Of a stretch of DNA of 64,000 nucleotides, positions 4,076-51,557 are shown one piece after another. Position numbers and translations under genes: made by a program. Location of the stretch: the NCBI RefSeq assembly GCF_026210795.1, contig NC_089443.1, positions 4,464,001 through 4,528,000 on the forward strand. Reading direction: 5' to 3'. How positions within the stretch are numbered: the stretch's first letter is position 1; each line of letters opens with the position of its first letter. The notes under the pieces are model-generated. The model saw only the letters and a program-made list of their open reading frames with translations. It did not search any database and was not told where the DNA came from. Source of the DNA: Rhizophagus irregularis (taxonomy: Eukaryota > Glomeromycota > Glomeromycetes > Glomerales > Glomeraceae).

Positions 4076-6375
4076 ATAAGATCACGCACTGGGATGCCGA
4101 ATCTAGAGATCTGCTCTTTTTCCACAAATTTAGGAATTTACAATGAATTCGCCAATTTTCAGCAAGGGACCTGCTGTTTTCAGTAGGTACCCACAGGTCC
4201 CATTAATATGGTGATTATTACACAAGCATATCAGCAAAAATATTTCCCTTTCAACAACATTTGAAATAGAAAATATAAATTTAGTAAATTTAGTAAATTT
4301 AAATAAATTACCAAATTCTTGGGAAATATCGATTGTAGGATAAAATTCAATTTATTACTTACAAAAAGTATTCTATTATGAATTTTAAGCAACAAGGAAA
4401 ATTTTATTTTAAACTCCTTTTTTTTTAAAAAAAAAAATACAATGTAATTATTGCTTCTACGTAAAAAAAAAGAAAATTTTGTGGACATTTAATAAATAAG
4501 AATTTAAAGTTGCAACATTTTTCGAAGTTTTAATTTTTAAAATATATCATCTACCCAAAAACTTAATTATGCTTCCCATGGAAGGATTGATCCTGTTAAA
4601 ATCTATGCTTAAAGAAAAAATCAGCAAATTCGCCTCGCCCAAGTTCCACACATTTCTTTAAAAAAAAAAAATTTTTTGAAAAGTTTTGATACTTCTCTTT
4701 GAAACTTATTGATCCAAGTAGTCATCGATACCTAAAAAAGTAACCAATCCTTCCATGTTCCATACAAAATATCTCCTCAAGTATAATTTAATTTTTTTAA
4801 ATAGGGTAAATTGATTTATACCCGAAGTATTTGAGTCAGTGCTATACGGTAGTTCTTTATGGATTTCATTTTCAATTTCGGTCACGTTATCCTAAAATAA
4901 AGTAAATGCAATCTTAAAAGATGGTTTATTTAAGTGTGCGAAAAGTAAAGGCGAAATTTGATAATTGCTACCATGCAATACTAAAGACTCCTTGCAATTT
5001 TATTTGAAAAATATTTTGCCGCTATAGCATTTGCACTCTACCAGTTCGGGTACAAGTCCTTGTATATCGTTCGCTTTCTTAATACGATTCAATAGCTTCT
5101 CTTTGATTTCAATTTTAATGCTCTTATTTGTTGAAAATATTTATCTGTAGGGCTCCGGAGACTTGAAAAAAAAAGAAGAAATGTCAGCACGTTCCTCTAA
5201 CGTAATTAAACATATTTCCCCCAATATATCTTCTAGGCTCGTCCAGAGTCTAGAGACTTACAAAAAAAGAAAGAAATCGAGCGTTACTAAAAAAAAAATA
5301 AATAAAAGAAAAATTTTATTTATAATGAAATAAAATATACCGGTTTACAAAAAATAAAATAATTTTTTTTTTAAAAAAAAAACTTAAAAGATTATCAATT
5401 GGAACGACCATATAAAAAATGCCAATTGTTTTTTAATATATTTATAAATTAAGACGGTTAATCTCAATAATTTTTCATAAAAAAAAAAATATTATTATAT
5501 TTTTTCATTTGGAAGACAAGTTAACAATCGCTCCACACCAAATGCGGTTAACTTATAAGCATGAACTCAAAATGCAATTAAGTTTGTGTTTGTGTGTTAC
5601 AAAAGTCATGTGTGGGTTACCTATTATGGATTAGTTACATTTAAGGTATTTGTATAAATAAATCGTATCGATAAATAAGATTTTTAAATTATGAATATAG
5701 GCTATTTGACAAGTGCAAATAGAATATATATTACATTCTTTTTTAGTTTATTTACTCCAAAATTTTGGATTTTATTCAACGTGAAGTTGATTTCATGATA
5801 ATATTATTCGATATAATGGAATAACAAAATTTGAGTCGGGTAATATTAATGTAAAATTTAATGATTATTTCTTTTATTCACTAAAAAATTATTAATTAAA
5901 ATGTCAAAAGAAATTAATAACTGGGCAACAAAATTATTTGTATTTGAAAGGAAACTTTAGATAATTCTTAGATAATTGGCTCGGCGACCCGTGATCTCAT
6001 CGGGTGTCGATCCACGAATAGTTTTACTGCGGAATCAGCAATTTTATAATGCGAAAACACCTTAATATTAATTGATGAATAGGTTAATAATTAATCGATA
6101 AAATTACTAGAATTATAAATCGAATTATTAGTATTAACTTTCATGACTATATTTAGTGCTTTAAAAACGCAATTACCAAGCTGAATTCCCCTCGCGCCAA
6201 GATTTCGTGTGAGCGAATCTTACCTCTAAACGGAATTATTACTTACCAACTTCTAAAACCTGTATAAAAAGTACCAAGTACCGTAAACTCATATACAACA
6301 GTAAATATGGTATATATATAACAATATTTTTATTATAAATAATTTAAATAATACAAATAATAAAAAATAAAACCT
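4076..6375. other. intergenic, no gene seen
   Basis: Low-complexity AT-rich DNA. A short hairpin-like patch near 4164-4200 pairs GGGACCTG with CAGGTCCC. Another hairpin-like patch (CGACCCG...CGGGTGTCG) lies near 5985-6015. The only frame of size (4231-4488, minus) is Phe/Lys/Leu-rich low complexity and is not supported as a gene. Confidence 0.5.
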
Positions 6376-43330: not shown

Positions 43331-45686
43331 TTATCTTACTACCTAATTTTTTTAGTTATATAATAAGCCACACGAATAAATTTTTTTTATTTTGGCAAAA
43401 AAATTTTTTTTTTAACAATATGGATTTTTTCAACATACTATATATAATTTCAGCAATATCACCATGGATAAATTTTTTTTTTTTAGACTTTTTTCAACAA
43501 TATCACACATAATTTTTTTAATATTGTTCTTTTAAATTATATAATGTATTTATATAATGTATGATAAATCTGCATTAAAACAATTTGATCGGTAAATTGA
43601 TAATAATTTCTTGATGGACTCCAGATTATTGTTTATTAATTGAACAATTCAAGCTGAATGAAAAATGGCAAATTCTGATAGTAGTACAATTTTTATTAGT
43701 CATCATATGTTAACTGCGAGTTACATTTGTTAATTATACTTAAAATTTAATTAATTTTACTTTTAAAAAATTTTTATTTTACTCTATATAAATAAAAAAT
43801 AACAAAGATAATTATAGATCATAATAATAACTAATTTTAAATCAGGGATTAGATGGATGATTTATTATATTATAATTATCAAATAAAAAACTATTTTGTT
43901 ATTAGTTTTTTACTTTATTAACAAATCAGCAAGTGACAGAAAAAAAAATCACATTATAACAATCTAGTTGCAAAAAAAAACTCTTCAGAAAAATCATATC
44001 ATAGCAATCTATTGTTATACAAAGAATTTTTTCAAATGTCAAAAAAAAATAATTATTTCCAACCTATTGTTATACAAAGAATTTTTCTGAATGCAAAAAA
44101 AATAATTATACCCAATTTATTGTTAAAAAAATTCTTACCAAAAAAAAAATTATTTAGGATCTGCCGGTATTGATCAATAGTTCTAACTATAAAAACATCA
44201 GACCCAGGATCTGTAAATAGGTCACATGCATGCCATTCAATTTAAAAAATAATTTATATGGGTTAATCTAAACAAAAAAGAGTCAACTAACTATTAGTAT
44301 TTATTAATATTAGTATGGTTAATTAATTTATATCAGTAAAAAAGCGTGATAATTGGTAATAACTATCACCAATTAATGTTAGTAAAATGCAACTAAAAAA
44401 TAATTTTTTATATATTGGTAATCATGAATTTGCCGATCAAATGATTTCAAATATTACACATAAATTATTTATTATTTACTGTATATAGTGCAAATTTTCA
44501 TTTTTATTAAAATTTTTTTTACTTTTATATTAATAAATAAATCATAACTAATAAAAAATTATAATTTTTAAATAATACATTAAAAACAATGATTATAGTA
44601 ATATATTACAAGCAATAACCTTTTTATGAATAATTAAAGATGAAAATTATGATAAATAATTTTGACAATTTTATAGAATTGAAATCAACCTTTAAAGTGT
44701 TAATCATTGACGCCAATTTTTGAGACCAATACAATTCTGGTTAATGGGTAGAAATGAAAATTTTTATACATCAAAAAATATATGCACGCAAAAGTAATGA
44801 TAAATTAAAAAATTAATTTAGTCATCCCGATCATTTAAATCACATGTAATTAATTTATGTCCTGACGCTAATTTTAGATGTGTTAACTATTATAATCATA
44901 GTTGTGGATTTTTTTTTAGTCATCAACAAAAAAAATTAATAATTTTTACATAACAGTAAATAAATTATCTTTCTTTTTGGCTTAAATATAAAGAAAAGAT
45001 TTTATAGGTAATGTATTACTATGCAGCTGCAATTCAGATTATGCCGTAGATGTTAGATCATCATTATCAATATTTTTTTTTTGAAACCCAATATAAACAA
45101 CCGCTATTTGTATAAAAATTGAAATTGACATGATATGATATGATATGACATGACATGACATGACATGATATGATATGATATTCATATACATATACATATA
45201 CATGTTTTTTTTATAACATGTTTTATAAAAACGCACCCTATAGTTGCTGCATGATGCTAACCAAATTTATACCTCTCCTTCCTTTTCGAGAACACACTAA
45301 ACCAACTATAGCCAATCATGTAAGATAAATATACTAAATTGAGGTCATCTGACTCTAACAACTATATAGTGCAATCTGCATATATTGTTAATTATGACAT
45401 ATACACGTTAATTTTCAATAAAATGTATACAAGTCGTATATAGACATCATGATCATTTCTTATATTTTGATAGTTTTATTCATGCTTATATTCATTTATT
45501 TATTCATTTATTTATTTATTCATTAATTGTTCAATTTTTACACGTAAAAAAAAGTATTAAGAATACTAATTAAAAAAATAAATATTGAAAAAATAAAGTA
45601 TCTGAAAATTAAAAATCACTTGATGAGGTGCGCCAGGTCGCCAAATAATAATAGCCTTATATTATTATTTTGATAATTTAAAAGAT
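43331..45686. other. intergenic, AT-rich; no gene seen
   Basis: More copies of the CTATTGTTA-type low-complexity motif (43960-44160). No open frame, RNA gene or TIR element recognised beyond the microsatellite listed separately. Confidence 0.5.
45126..45204. repeat. (ATATG)n/(ACATG)n and (CATATA)n microsatellites
   Basis: A pentamer run alternates ATATG and ACATG blocks (45126-45180) and is followed by CATATA hexamers (45183-45204). Likely polymorphic in length. Confidence 0.9.
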
Positions 45687-45880
45687 TTATTTAAATTACA
45701 AACTAAGAAACTTGTAAAATATTTACTACTCTAGTCTTAGTGTTTAAATAATTCTAAGTATAATAAAAAAAAGTGAAAAGCTATAAAAAAAAAGGAATTA
45801 TTTAAATTACAAACTAAGAAACTTGTAAAATATTTTACTACTCTAGCCTTAGTGTTTAAATAAATCTAAAAAGAATAAAA
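45687..45880. repeat. two-copy tandem duplication, period about 111
   Basis: The block TTTAAATTACAAACTAAGAA followed by ACTTGTAAAATATT, CTACTCTAG and CTTAGTGTTTAAATAA occurs at 45690-45765 and again at 45800-45875 with very few changes. It lies just beyond the 3' end of kinase 2, a locus that is rich in tandem duplications of similar period. Confidence 0.85.
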
Positions 45881-45965
45881 TAAAGAACAATTTCTTTTGA
45901 ATGCATAATATCAAATATCACTTAAAAAAAACTATAAATTTTTTTAAAAAACAAACAATGATAAG

Positions 45966-48900
45966 TTAATTTTCATCAGTTTTAATATCTAATAATTAAA
46001 TATTAAAAAATAAAATTAATTTCACATAAATAATTTGCAAGATTAATTCCTTTTATATATCATAGTACATACCTGATGACCCCAAATTCTTAATTATACA
46101 ATCACTCAAATTTTCACTTACTAGTATTTCATTTGTTTTTACACTAGCTTGTGAATCTTCACTTTCAAGAATTTCATTCAACTTAATAATATTCTCATCT
46201 GTTTTAATAATTAATAAATTAATTAACTTCATATTAATAATTTGCAAGATTAATTTTTTATATAATATAGTATATACCAAATGTTCTCAAATCTTTAATC
46301 ACACAATCATTCAAATTTTCACTTTCAAGAATTTCATTCAATTTTTTACTAGTAAAATCAAGTAAGCGACTTGTATAACATGCTTTAGGATGAAATTGAG
46401 TAACAAGATTGTTATGCTGCCCAATTGGTGCATTTATAAATTCCATAATGTTGCTTTTTAATTCATCATTGACTTCATCATCTTTATAAGGACGGAAAAT
46501 CCATTTTTTAATAATTTTTAATACTTCTTTAGAAGCTGGTCTTTTTAATGGATCTTCATTCCAACATTTTTTCATTAAATCTACATAACATTGTGGAGTA
46601 TTTTCAATAATTTCAGGTCGTTCACCTTTTCTACAAATATCTAAACTAAGTTCAAGATCATGTGCTCTATTATTAAATGGTGGTATCCCAGATGTAAGTT
46701 CCCACATAATCATAGAAAAACTATATATATCACTAGCTGGAGTATAAGATTTGCCTCTTAAAACTTCAGGAGCCATAAATGGTATAACACCATAAATATC
46801 ATATTTTTTCAAAAACGATTTTACAGGTTGACATAATCCTAAATCACTAATATAAATTTTATCACCATCAAACTTATTATTATGATTTAAAATATTACCA
46901 TCATGAAAATCACAATGAATAAGATTTTCTCCATGTATCTTATTAAGTCCAGAAATAATTTCGTACAACATATATAATTTTTGATTCCAATTATTTTCGA
47001 CTATTGTTGTTAAATTTTCTCTTAAATTACCTTTATTTGCATACTCCATTACTACCATATATTTTGAAGTATTTGGATCTTTTGTGAATCCATAAACATT
47101 TATAATATCACTTGAAGCTAAAACACTTGTATGATATTCCCACTATAAAAGATAATAATTATTATTAATATAGATAAATTTTAATTTAAATTAAAAATAG
47201 AAAATAATATACTATCATACTTCTTTTAAAAATTCATTTAAATTTTCATTTAAATTCTTGGGACATTTAAGAATTACTTCTTCATCCTCTTCATCTTCTT
47301 TATCTCCATTATTCTTTAACCAAATAGCTCTGTATATAGTACCAAATCCTCCTTCACTAAGATGTTCAACATTTTTAAATTTGTTATAAGGAATCCATCT
47401 TAATGTTTTTTCAAGAATAAAATCATCTATAATTGCATTTCCACTTTTCCCAAATCTATAAATTTAAATAATTAAAATTATATTATAGATTGTATTATAA
47501 TTTACACAAAATAAATTATTACTTACTCTAAAATTTAAATAGGAATTTAATGTAATATAAGTCTTAGTTTTTGGATAAATACATATAATAATCTATAATT
47601 TACAACTTACCAACTAAAGTAACAGATATTTTTAAATGAAAGAATTAAATTAACGAATAAATATTATATAAATATATAACAATAGGAATACTTACAAGCT
47701 AGATCATAAATAATTTTTTAAGTGAAAAAAAATAGATAGTTTAAATTATATGTAAATATAAGTAATAATAGAATTAAATAAATAACTTACTCCCTATATT
47801 ATTTAATAATTTTTTAAATAAAGAAATTAGATAGTTTAAAATATATGTAAATATTATAACAATAAGTAATAATAGAATTAAATAAATAACTTACTCCCTA
47901 TATTATTTAATAATTTTTTAAATAAAGAAATTAGATAGTTTAAAATATATGTAAATATTATAACAATAAGTAATAATAGAATTAAATAAGTAACTTATGA
48001 CTTACCAACTAAAATAAATTACAAAATAATTTTTTAAATAAAGAAATTAGATAGTTTAAAATATATGTAAATATTATAACAATAAGTAATAATAGAATTA
48101 AATAAATAACTTACTCCCTATATTATTTAATAATTTTTTAAATAAAGAAATTAGATAGTTTAAAATATATGTAAATATTATAACAATAAGTAATAATAGA
48201 ATTAAATAAGTAACTTATGACTTACCAACTAAAATAAATTACAAAATAATTTTTTAAATAAAGAAATTAGATAGTTTAAAATATATGTAAATATTATAAC
48301 AATAAGTAATAATAGAATTAAATAAATAACTTACTCCCTATATTATTTAATAATTTTTTAAATAAAGAAATTAGATAGTTTAAAATATATGTAAATATTA
48401 TAACAATAAGTAATAATAGAATTAAATAAGTAACTTATGACTTACCAACTAAAATAAATTACAAAATAATTTTTTAAATAAAGAAATTAGATAGTTTAAA
48501 ATATATGTAAATATTATAACAATAAGTAATAATAGAATTAAATAAATAACTTACGATCTACGAAATAATTTTTTAAATAAAGAAATTAGATAGTTTAAAA
48601 TATATGTAAATATTATAACAATAAGTAATAATAGAATTAAATAAATAACTTACTCCCTATATTATTTAATAATTTTTTAAATAAAGAAATTAGATAGTTT
48701 AAAATATATGTAAATATTATAACAATAAGTAATAATAGAATTAAATAAATAACTTACTCCCTATATTATTTAATAATTTTTTAAATAAAGAAATTAGATA
48801 GTTTAAAATATATGTAAATATTATAACAATAAGTAATAATAGAATTAAATAAGTAACTTATGACTTACCAACTAAAATAAATTACAAAATAATTTTTTAA

Positions 48901-51557
48901 ATAAAGAAATTAGATAGTTTAAAATATATGTAAATATTATAACAATAAGTAATAATAGAATTAAATAAATAACTTACTCCCTATATTATTTAATAATTTT
49001 TTAAATAAAGAAATTAGATAGTTTAAAATATATGTAAATATTATAACAATAAGTAATAATAGAATTAAATAAGTAACTTATGACTTACCAACTAAAATAA
49101 ATTACAAAATAATTTTTTAAATAAAGAAATTAGATAGTTTAAAATATATGTAAATATTATAACAATAAGTAATAATAGAATTAAATAAATAACTTACGAT
49201 CTACGAAATAATTTTTTAAATAAAGAAATTAGATAGTTTAAAATATATGTAAATATTATAACAATAAGTAATAATAGAATTAAATAAATAACTTACTCCC
49301 TATATTATTTAATAATTTTTTAAATAAAGAAATTAGATAGTTTAAAATATATGTAAATATTATAACAATAAGTAATAATAGAATTAAATAAATAACTTAT
49401 GACTTACCAACTAAAATAAATTACAAAATAATTTTTTAAATAAAGAAATTAGATAGTTTAAAATATATGTAAATATTATAACAATAAGTAATAATAGAAT
49501 TAAATAAATAACTTACCCCTATATTATTTAATAATTTTTTAAATAAAGAAATTAGATAGTTTAAAATATATAAATATTATAACAATAAGTAATACCAGAA
49601 TTAAATAATAACTTATGACTTACCAACTAAAATAAATTACAAAATAATTTTTTAAAATAAAGAAATTAGATAGTTTAAAATATATGTAAATATTATAACA
49701 ATAAGTAATAATAGAATTAAATAAATAACTTATGACTTACCAACTAAAATAAATTACAAAATAATTTTTTAAATAAAGAAATTAGATAGTTTAAAATATA
49801 TGTAAATATTATAACAATAAGTAATAATAGAATTAAATAAATAACTTATGACTTACCAACTAAAATAAATTACAAAATAATTTTTTAAATAAAGAAATTA
49901 GATAGTTTAAAATATATGTAAATATTATAACAATAAGTAATAATAGAATTAAATAAATAACTTACTCCCTATATTATTTAATAATTTTTTAAATAAAGAA
50001 ATTAGATAGTTTAAAATATATGTAAATATTATAACAATAAGTAATAATAGAATTAAATAAATAACTTACTCCCTATATTATTTAATAATTTTTTAAATAA
50101 AGAAATTAGATAGTTTAAAATATATGTAAATATTATAACAATAAGTAATAATAGAATTAAATAAATAACTTATGACTTACCAACTAAAATAAATTACAAA
50201 ATAATTTTTTAAATAAAGAAATTAGATAGTTTAAAATATATGTAAATATTATAACAATAAGTAATAATAGAATTAAATAAATAACTTACTCCCTATATTA
50301 TTTAATAATTTTTTAAATAAAGAAATTAGATAGTTTAAAATATATGTAAATATTATAACAATAAGTAATAATAGAATTAAATAAATAACTTATGACTTAC
50401 CAACTAAAATAAATTACAAAATAATTTTTTAAATAAAGAAATTAGATAGTTTAAAATATATGTAAATATTATAACAATAAGTAATAATAGAATTAAATAA
50501 ATAACTTATGACTTACCAACTAAAATAAATTACAAAATAATTTTTTAAATAAAGAAATTAGATAGTTTAAAATATATGTAAATATTATAACAATAAGTAA
50601 TAATAGAATTAAATAAATAACTTACTCCCTATATTATTTAATAATTTTTTAAATAAAGAAATTAGATAGTTTAAAATATATGTAAATATTATAACAATAA
50701 GTAATAATAGAATTAAATAAATAACTTACTCCCTATATTATTTAATAATTTTTTAAATAAAGAAATTAGATAGTTTAAAATATATGTAAATATTATAACA
50801 ATAAGTAATAATAGAATTAAATAAATAACTTACGATCTACGAAATAATTTTTTAAATAAAGAAATTAGATAGTTTAAAATATATGTAAATATTATAACAA
50901 TAAGTAATAATAGAATTAAATAAATAACTTACGATCTACGAAATAATTTTTTAAATAAAGAAATTAGATAGTTTAAAATATATGTAAATATTATAACAAT
51001 AAGTAATAATAGAATTAAATAAATAACTTATGACTTACCAACTAAAATAAATTACAAAATAATTTTTTAAATAAAGAAATTAGATAGTTTAAATTATACG
51101 TAAATATTATAACAATAAGTAATAATAAAATTAAATAAATAACTTATGACTTACCAACTAAAATAAATTACAAAATAATTTTTTAAATAAAGAAATTAGA
51201 TAGTTTAAATTATACGTAAATATTATAACAATAAGTAATAATAGAATTAAATAAATAACTTACTCCCTATATTATTTAATAATTTTTTAAATAAAGTATT
51301 GGTTAGATTGGATTGTACAAATAATATAAATATAAATATCATAACTTACACCCTGTAGTATTATAAATTATCAATTAGTTAGATATAAAGATAATATAAA
51401 AGTAATTATTGTAAATTATATATATATTACTTACAATCTAGTTATTTAAATTAAGAATATAATTAGTTGAATTATATAAAATATTAAACATAAATTGTTT
51501 ATAAATAAAAACTTAATATTTCAGCTTATTTGATATACCTTCAATACGTTGGTCCAT
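45966..51557 (-). CDS. protein kinase 2 (TKL-like) with a predicted microexon N-terminus
   Basis: Supported exons on the minus strand are 47455-47221 (FGKSGNAIIDDFI, LRWIPYNKF, glycine loop SEGGFGTIY, VILK), 47142-46278, 46198-46073 and 45988-45966 (stop). Introns are GT-AG with consistent phases. The large exon (47142-46278) holds LIHCDFHDGN, SDLG in place of DFG, APEVLRGKSYTPASDIYSF and WNEDPLKRP. A candidate first exon, 51557-51539 (ATG, MDQRIE + G), lies 4 kb upstream. Between them are 38 AG|n|GTAAG sites: 36 of three bases, one of two, one of one base. Including the one-base site (47527) restores the kinase frame; joining exon 1 straight to the kinase exon gives a stop after nine more codons. 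Predicted length is 422 residues without, or about 459 with, the three-base exons. The kinase body is well supported; the 5' structure is inference. Confidence 0.75.
47700..51290 (-). repeat. 33-unit tandem array of mini-introns with 3-base exon candidates
   Basis: Units of 99-111 bases share a core containing, on the minus strand, GTAAGT near the start, CTATCTAATTTC as a branch-like word, and an AG end. Three tail types differ just before the next GTAAGT: ...ATATAG|GGA| (14 units), ...TATTTTAG|TTG| (14) and ...TTTCGTAG|ATC| (4). One unit at 49517 has AG|GG| with only two bases and sits in the most degenerate stretch. Spacings between adjacent sites are about 104 (GGA to GGA), 109-111 (GGA with TTG) and 99 (next to ATC). 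GGA and TTG types alternate over parts of the array, as in a higher-order repeat. It lies wholly in the 5' region of kinase 2. A plain satellite within one long intron is the alternative reading. Confidence 0.9.

Follow-up and report, generated by a model that had tools for sequence, protein, structure and literature searches.

Excerpts of one published account (PMC10526429) describe the micro-exon genes (MEGs) of Schistosoma mansoni as carrying 10-20 very short exons (3-81 bp) with introns of up to ~5 kb and as encoding secreted proteins. In plants, constitutive microexons of 1-15 nt are reported in parts of two papers, including the 1-nt exons of APC11 and VPS55 (PMC8831610, PMC4674806). A third system is recursive splicing and its RS-exons, for which an excerpted source describes how the joining of exons creates a 5' splice site at the junction that is used next (PMC6224609). 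Here we analyzed a stretch of 64,000 nt from contig NC_089443.1 of the fungus Rhizophagus irregularis (the window), in which a protein kinase gene on the minus strand is preceded by a long array of putative one-codon exons. Judging from the DNA, we consider it highly probable that the array encodes a peptide at one codon per exon, with microexons that are nearly all 3 nt long, separated by phase-1 introns and spliced in order.

The R. irregularis arrays resemble MEGs, as portrayed in that account, in that chains of very short exons would encode a protein segment and automatic annotation struggles with them (PMC10526429). Unlike MEGs, the R. irregularis chains comprise 20-90 modelled exons, nearly all of one codon and in phase 1, with introns of ~97 nt, and stand before a protein kinase. 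With plant microexons, as far as the excerpts describe them, they share that 1-nt or very short exons are often missed by annotation and that strong donors are present (GTRAGT at the plant VPS55 exon). The plant cases are single exons or an adjacent pair, whereas in R. irregularis tandem arrays multiply an intron together with a codon. The likeness to recursive splicing, in the form outlined above, lies in a 5' splice site that is formed at the junction and serves the next step; in contrast to it, the R. irregularis chains would retain the bases in the coding sequence and the step would recur dozens of times. Local tandem duplication is a known source of new introns, and the arrays are comparable to intron gain of this kind, the unit here being a whole intron plus one codon that is repeated as a coding satellite. 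Among the matches listed from titles and abstracts of openly licensed literature, we found no description of microexons in Rhizophagus or other mycorrhizal fungi, or of microexon arrays, and the word "microexon" is absent from the main text of the R. irregularis assembly paper (PMC10234402).

Exon geometry in the window and in related arrays

On the minus strand of the window, 38 GTAAG donors lie between 51434 and 47526, and the site listing places AG exactly 3 nt upstream of 36 of them, the remaining two following AG after 2 nt and 1 nt (Table 1). A previous sequence-only reading had announced 37 one-codon microexons; the array itself and the 36 regular sites out of 38 stand, while the number of one-codon exons comes to 36. 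The exon words that it listed were all recovered, with GGA, TTG and ATC inside the array and ATT, GGT, CTT and TTG at its ends. Every other spacing from 0 to 11 nt occurs once or not at all on the array strand, AG-N3-GTAAG does not occur in the reversed, complemented or reverse-complemented array, and in the remainder of the window AG is found 3 nt ahead of GTRAG in 4 of 103 cases, which gives the chance level. Model introns measure 71-114 nt. An identical twin exists among the other units for 27 of the 37, and the five introns at the two ends of the array are 18-31 edits away from the nearest other unit. As repetition within the window is explained by tandem copying, diverged arrays elsewhere provide the stronger evidence. 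The gene behind the array has an intact reading frame, scores 144.6 bits against the kinase domain PF07714 (curated cut-off 23.1) and matches the public protein P0001 of R. irregularis DAOM 197198 with 100% identity over 100% of the query.

The genome (146,748,485 bases, 32 contigs) was searched with the word AGGGAGTAAG, which occurs 632 times compared with 108 times for its reversed control. Many of the first 100 of these 632 places, on contigs C1-C4, fall into clusters, and 15 of these clusters, taken as 10-kb loci, yielded 15 further arrays. Fourteen of them precede, on the same strand, exons of paralogous kinases of the window kinase's family (an excerpt of PMC10234402 gives 2,533 kinases for one R. 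irregularis annotation), and the remaining one (L010) precedes an unrelated AIG1-GTPase gene. Over all 16 arrays, the window and L010 included, AG lies exactly 3 nt before GTRAG in 685 of 711 cases, which bears out the suggestion that related kinases share the geometry. Within a locus, microintrons show a mean pairwise identity of 0.65-0.85 and fall into 11-31 distinct lengths (13 loci); intron length modulo 3 is roughly even (175/155/184 among 514 introns).

To let exon length vary, kinase loci were modelled as chains in which donors and acceptors were scored and exons could take any length from 1 to 20 nt. Under this model, 543 of 562 exons in 13 loci came out at 3 nt, and the others were eleven of 1 nt (all of them last exons), four of 6 nt, two of 4 nt, one of 12 nt and one of 2 nt. 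For L016 and L022 the models were extended into adjoining sequence to complete them, a weak-signal exon was added by hand in L011, L019, L022 and L023, and six exons of 8-9 nt, called within an inserted element, were dropped in L016. After these edits 705 of 734 exons in 15 kinase loci measured 3 nt, 11 more were multiples of three (6-18 nt), 15 were 1-nt last exons and 3 broke the frame; consecutive very short exons that are mostly multiples of three, as in MEG-type genes, are thus present. Donors read GTAAGT in 440 of 514 microintrons and acceptors TAG in 486, counts that are partly by construction because the matrices were trained on strict sites, and 451 introns have a branch-like CTAAH no more than 65 nt from the 3' site, as opposed to 138 shuffled ones. 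At the level of DNA, the arrays have the makeup of candidate spliceosomal microexons, that is, exons of no more than 30 nt flanked by GT...AG introns with donor, branch-like and acceptor signals. Apparent 1-nt exons inside arrays, obtained by counting from the nearest AG, proved false; they are 3-nt exons that begin with AG. In L016, a short inserted element that carries GGGGAGGGG sits between microintrons near 4905, 6622 and 8306 and was apparently copied with a ~1.7-kb block duplication that holds many microexons.

Stop codons and reading frame along the chains

Because the introns are in phase 1, a codon consists of the last base of one microexon and the first two of the next. These bases lie ~100 bases apart in the DNA and the codon exists only after splicing. 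Junctions were scored in the kinase loci between neighbouring 3-nt exons with an intron of at most 140 nt, and expectations were derived by shuffling exon order within loci (5000 shuffles). Not one of 627 neighbour junctions forms a stop, with 21.8 expected (standard deviation 3.7, shuffle minimum 10). The same holds when unique pairs are counted per locus (0/456 vs 18.7 expected) or when distinct pair types are counted over 13 loci (0/200 vs 10.9). Stops are avoided at neighbour junctions only: there is no depletion in reversed order (27/627 vs 21.8) or in phase 2 (63/488 vs 55.7, 13 loci), and junctions that skip one exon (16/559 vs 19.5) or two (23/498 vs 17.4) carry stops at about the chance rate. 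Among unique pairs, T-ending exons are never found ahead of AA, AG or GA (18.6 expected), while C-, A- and G-ending exons precede them 10, 29 and 29 times (12.3, 26.7 and 21.9 expected). L016 and L022 contribute 0/139 stops where 5.5 were expected, a test that is only partly held-out because parts of both loci were already in the earlier set. As stops can be avoided in this way only if exons are joined and translated, the pattern is evidence, at the level of DNA, that each microexon is spliced to its neighbour and read in phase 1.

A cruder first count, in which missed exons were ignored, had shown phase-1 stops at 7 places in kinases, every one of them in a gap of 172-323 nt. In later models each of these gaps contains one or more exons whose donor is weaker (GTATGT, GTATGC, GTAAAT, GTAAAC, GCAAGT or GTAGGT), and one gap, in L011, loses its stop only when another exon is inserted by hand.

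In 13 of the 15 kinase loci the chain stays open and enters the kinase exon in the correct phase; eight of these chains needed no edit and five were edited by hand. Together with the stop-free junctions, this upholds the earlier proposal of one-codon exons in a phase 1 set by exon 1, with 3n+1 bases placed before the kinase exon. Six models run from an ATG through exon 2 and the microexons to the kinase. Those of L013, L014, L017 and L020 are open, that of L011 has one stop, and that of L019, with its last exon placed by hand, meets stops within the kinase exon. Past the L019 array, the kinase exon gives way after MDNF to unrelated sequence full of stops, as though the gene had been disrupted by an insertion.

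The two ends of the chains are conserved and the expanded array is placed between them. Near the 5' end, the pair ATT-GGT or ATT-GGC is found in 13 of 15 kinase loci, and a last exon of 1 nt (A, G or C) is found in all 15, 12 times in the models and 3 times added by hand with weaker signals. A typical paralogue chain starts with CTC-TTR/TCR-ATG-ATT-GGT and ends with CTT-TTG-A, with variations; read in phase 1, the start gives A-L-N/D-D-W and the end F-E/K-FGKSGN. When the next-to-last exon changes among TTG, TTA and TCA, the codon TTT or TTC (Phe) is kept after the T-ending exon. The exon 1 layout of the window is repeated in L021, and exon 2 is separate, and often acidic, in most of the other loci whose 5' end was read. 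Modelled N-termini, for example MALSNDKVSDNIELEG, do not look hydrophobic by eye.

The array of the AIG1-GTPase gene (L010 together with L024; PF04548, 63.9 bits) has introns and exon words (ACC, ACT, AGG, AAA) unlike those of the kinase arrays. With exon length free from 1 to 30 nt, all 68 consecutive exons (67 plus the anchor) are modelled at 3 nt, and three introns of 200-240 nt may hide further exons. Starting from an ATG that appears split between its first two exons (MDERLWEELEESLKGLLPPTPPPPPLPGRLP...), the chain stays open over 67 codons, and the other two phases have 3 and 6 stops; the junction stop test is powerless in the chain's own phase (expected 0.0). The 927-aa open reading frame (ORF) behind the array has its first Met at residue 458, and the start therefore probably lies upstream. 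The last junction needs an exon of 20 or 26 nt, which was placed by eye and joins in frame; a 5' leader exon was not identified for this gene.

Alternative explanations

Several points weigh against reading the arrays as coding chains. When a composite of phase-1 array peptides was compared with 5149 candidate proteins of suitable length, none matched at E<=10. Residues 1-130 of the AIG1 model had no match at E<=0.01, a search that says little on the array because this stretch includes part of the plain ORF. Public models of some family members seem to use phase-0 codons and a 5-nt last exon. The 15 further arrays were picked through one 3-nt-exon word in part of the genome and are a non-random sample, training of the splice-site matrices used sites with AG 3 nt ahead of GTRAG, and the chains of L009, L018 and L023, for want of an anchored exon-2 donor, start at a microexon. 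The hand edits behind five of the 13 open chains consisted of accepting a weaker splice site or dropping exons inside an inserted element. Two chains are out of frame, that of the window when every exon is included, because of its 2-nt exon, and that of L021, which has two 4-nt exons and 4 stops in another highly homogenised array. As for the junctions, tandem copying reduces the number that are independent. From 721 consecutive exon pairs, 45 were omitted because an exon deviated from 3 nt and 49 because the intron exceeded 140 nt, the latter holding one phase-1 stop (L011, at a 198-nt intron). The intron cut-offs (150, later 140) were not set in advance, as they were chosen once stops had been seen in long gaps.

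The public models raise the question of phase. Were the exons real but translated in phase 0, the chain closing with AGTAA as a 5-nt exon and yielding ...LSKFGKSGN, this would suit the N-termini of P0001, P0005, P0019, P0040, P0092 and P0101, which look like array codons in the wrong phase (by eye except for P0001), several being rich in Gly, Leu, Ile or Val. The spliced alignment of P0001 uses AGTAA followed by GTAATA at 47527-47523, but reproduces the first part of the protein poorly. TAA, TAG and TGA are rare as 3-nt exons (1/604 in kinases), as a phase-0 reading would have it, yet this may be because beside GTAAG they create competing splice sites. Phase 0 offers no reason for the complete lack of junction stops, the loci read have an exon 2 that ends in phase 1, L022 has phase-0 stops (TGA, TAGGAA, GCCTAACAA) but is open in phase 1, and L019 and L023 lack the GT needed for a 5-nt exon. 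Phase 0 was rejected on these grounds; we hold it to be very unlikely, and the public phase-0 models look to us like gene-finder solutions. A non-coding satellite within one long intron, with AG-NNN-GTAAG merely as its repeat unit, would agree with the near-perfect tandem repetition of the window array and with phase-1 peptides that match no public protein. Yet exon length and splice signals are kept in diverged arrays while introns vary, stops are absent solely at forward neighbour junctions, a second gene family repeats the geometry with unlike introns, and exon 1 or 2, ending in phase 1, would be out of frame if joined directly to the kinase exon; such a satellite is still harder to credit than phase 0. 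We give the least credence to recursive-splicing or decoy stations that would help to remove a long intron without leaving bases, or would regulate expression by slow splicing. The closely paired AG and GT and the strong GTAAGT donors do resemble ratchet points, but such stations need AG directly before GT with 0 nt retained. AG abuts GTRAG in 1 of 711 cases in the 16 arrays, and the 3 nt found instead avoid stops in forward order only.

Another possibility concerns which exons are used. According to the sequence-only reading, any subset of the microexons could be included, producing a peptide of variable length. Tiny exons are easily skipped, nearly all microexons are 3 nt and would keep the frame, and subsets of GGA, TTG and ATC in the window never give a stop, so the claim of stop-free subsets is correct for the few words of the window array. 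It does not extend to the kinase family as a rule: skip-one and skip-two junctions carry stops near expectation, and selection therefore has not protected skipped products, which makes combinatorial inclusion improbable. For the window copy alone, we see an even chance that it is a dead or assembly-damaged member whose frame is killed by the 2-nt exon. The intron starting at 49623, beside this exon, has five further edits in an otherwise near-identical array, and 49517-49700 may represent damage to a unit or else a stretch where the assembly consensus is weak. Set against this, the kinase frame is intact, the damage may be consensus error, and omission of the 2-nt exon alone restores 3n+1.

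Under the favoured reading, that of one-codon exons joined in order and translated in phase 1, the spliceosome would join all microexons successively, most simply in the 5'-to-3' direction by intron definition, because a 3-nt exon can hardly bind 3'-site and 5'-site factors together. Each splicing step would add 3 nt and recreate an exon end, whose strong GTAAGT donor would serve the following step, and the chain would close with the 1-nt exon that sets the phase of the kinase exon. The chain would yield ~19-100 residues that separate the kinase domain from a short N-terminus, often an acidic one; this segment is most likely a variable linker or recognition surface of the expanded kinases. The unit of intron plus codon would multiply by tandem duplication, ~100 bp adding one residue with the frame undisturbed; growth of this kind is seen in the identical units of the window and in the block repeats of L016.

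Features of the locus and significance

The modelled parts of the window gene and the AIG1-GTPase array are collected in Table 1. Downstream of the kinase gene, at 45680-45885, a 112-bp unit is present in tandem duplicate.

Table 1. Positions of the modelled gene parts in the window and of the array before the GTPase gene.
Feature	Position	Strand	Remarks
Exon 1	51539..51557	-	ATG to donor GTATATC at 51538; MDQRIE plus first base of next codon; phase 1; from sequence and model anchor
Two conserved 5' one-codon exons	51350..51437	-	ATT 51437-51435, GGT 51352-51350; introns differ from array units
Expanded array	47791..51266	-	32 one-codon exons (GGA, TTG, ATC) and one 2-nt exon; GTAAGT...TAG microintrons between
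Defective 2-nt exon	49517..49518	-	AG-GG-GTAAG; frame lost if every exon is included
Two conserved 3' one-codon exons	47611..47698	-	CTT 47698-47696, TTG 47613-47611; from site listing, intron and paralogue comparison
1-nt exon A	47527..47527	-	AG-A-GTAAG; fixes phase of kinase exon
First kinase exon	47221..47455	-	Completes a codon, then FGKSGNAIIDDF...; P0001 match
Second kinase exon, kinase domain PF07714	46278..47142	-	Probable 3' end, from public protein P0001 and the DNA
L010 + L024 array	C1:1719800-1729700 (L010)		Precedes AIG1-type GTPase gene with long coiled coil

The absence of stops at neighbour junctions offers a general means to argue for microexon chains from DNA alone. If RNA confirms the chains, the public N-termini of array-bearing R. 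irregularis kinases would be wrong, and these would be, to our knowledge, the densest known intron arrays per coding base, with ~97 nt of intron per codon and chains of up to ~90 exons. If the reading is true, the arrays would provide a direct test of accurate sequential splicing of dozens of 3-nt exons, probably without exon definition, and a route by which a protein segment grows through satellite expansion while introns protect the frame. More tentatively, and with rather less than an even chance of being right, R. irregularis may possess, across its genome, a class of genes with a coding satellite of intron plus codon, through which tandem recombination could add, remove and reshuffle the residues of a peptide one at a time and in frame. 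The result would be a fast-evolving variable segment before conserved kinase and GTPase domains, possibly serving recognition between nuclei, strains or hosts.

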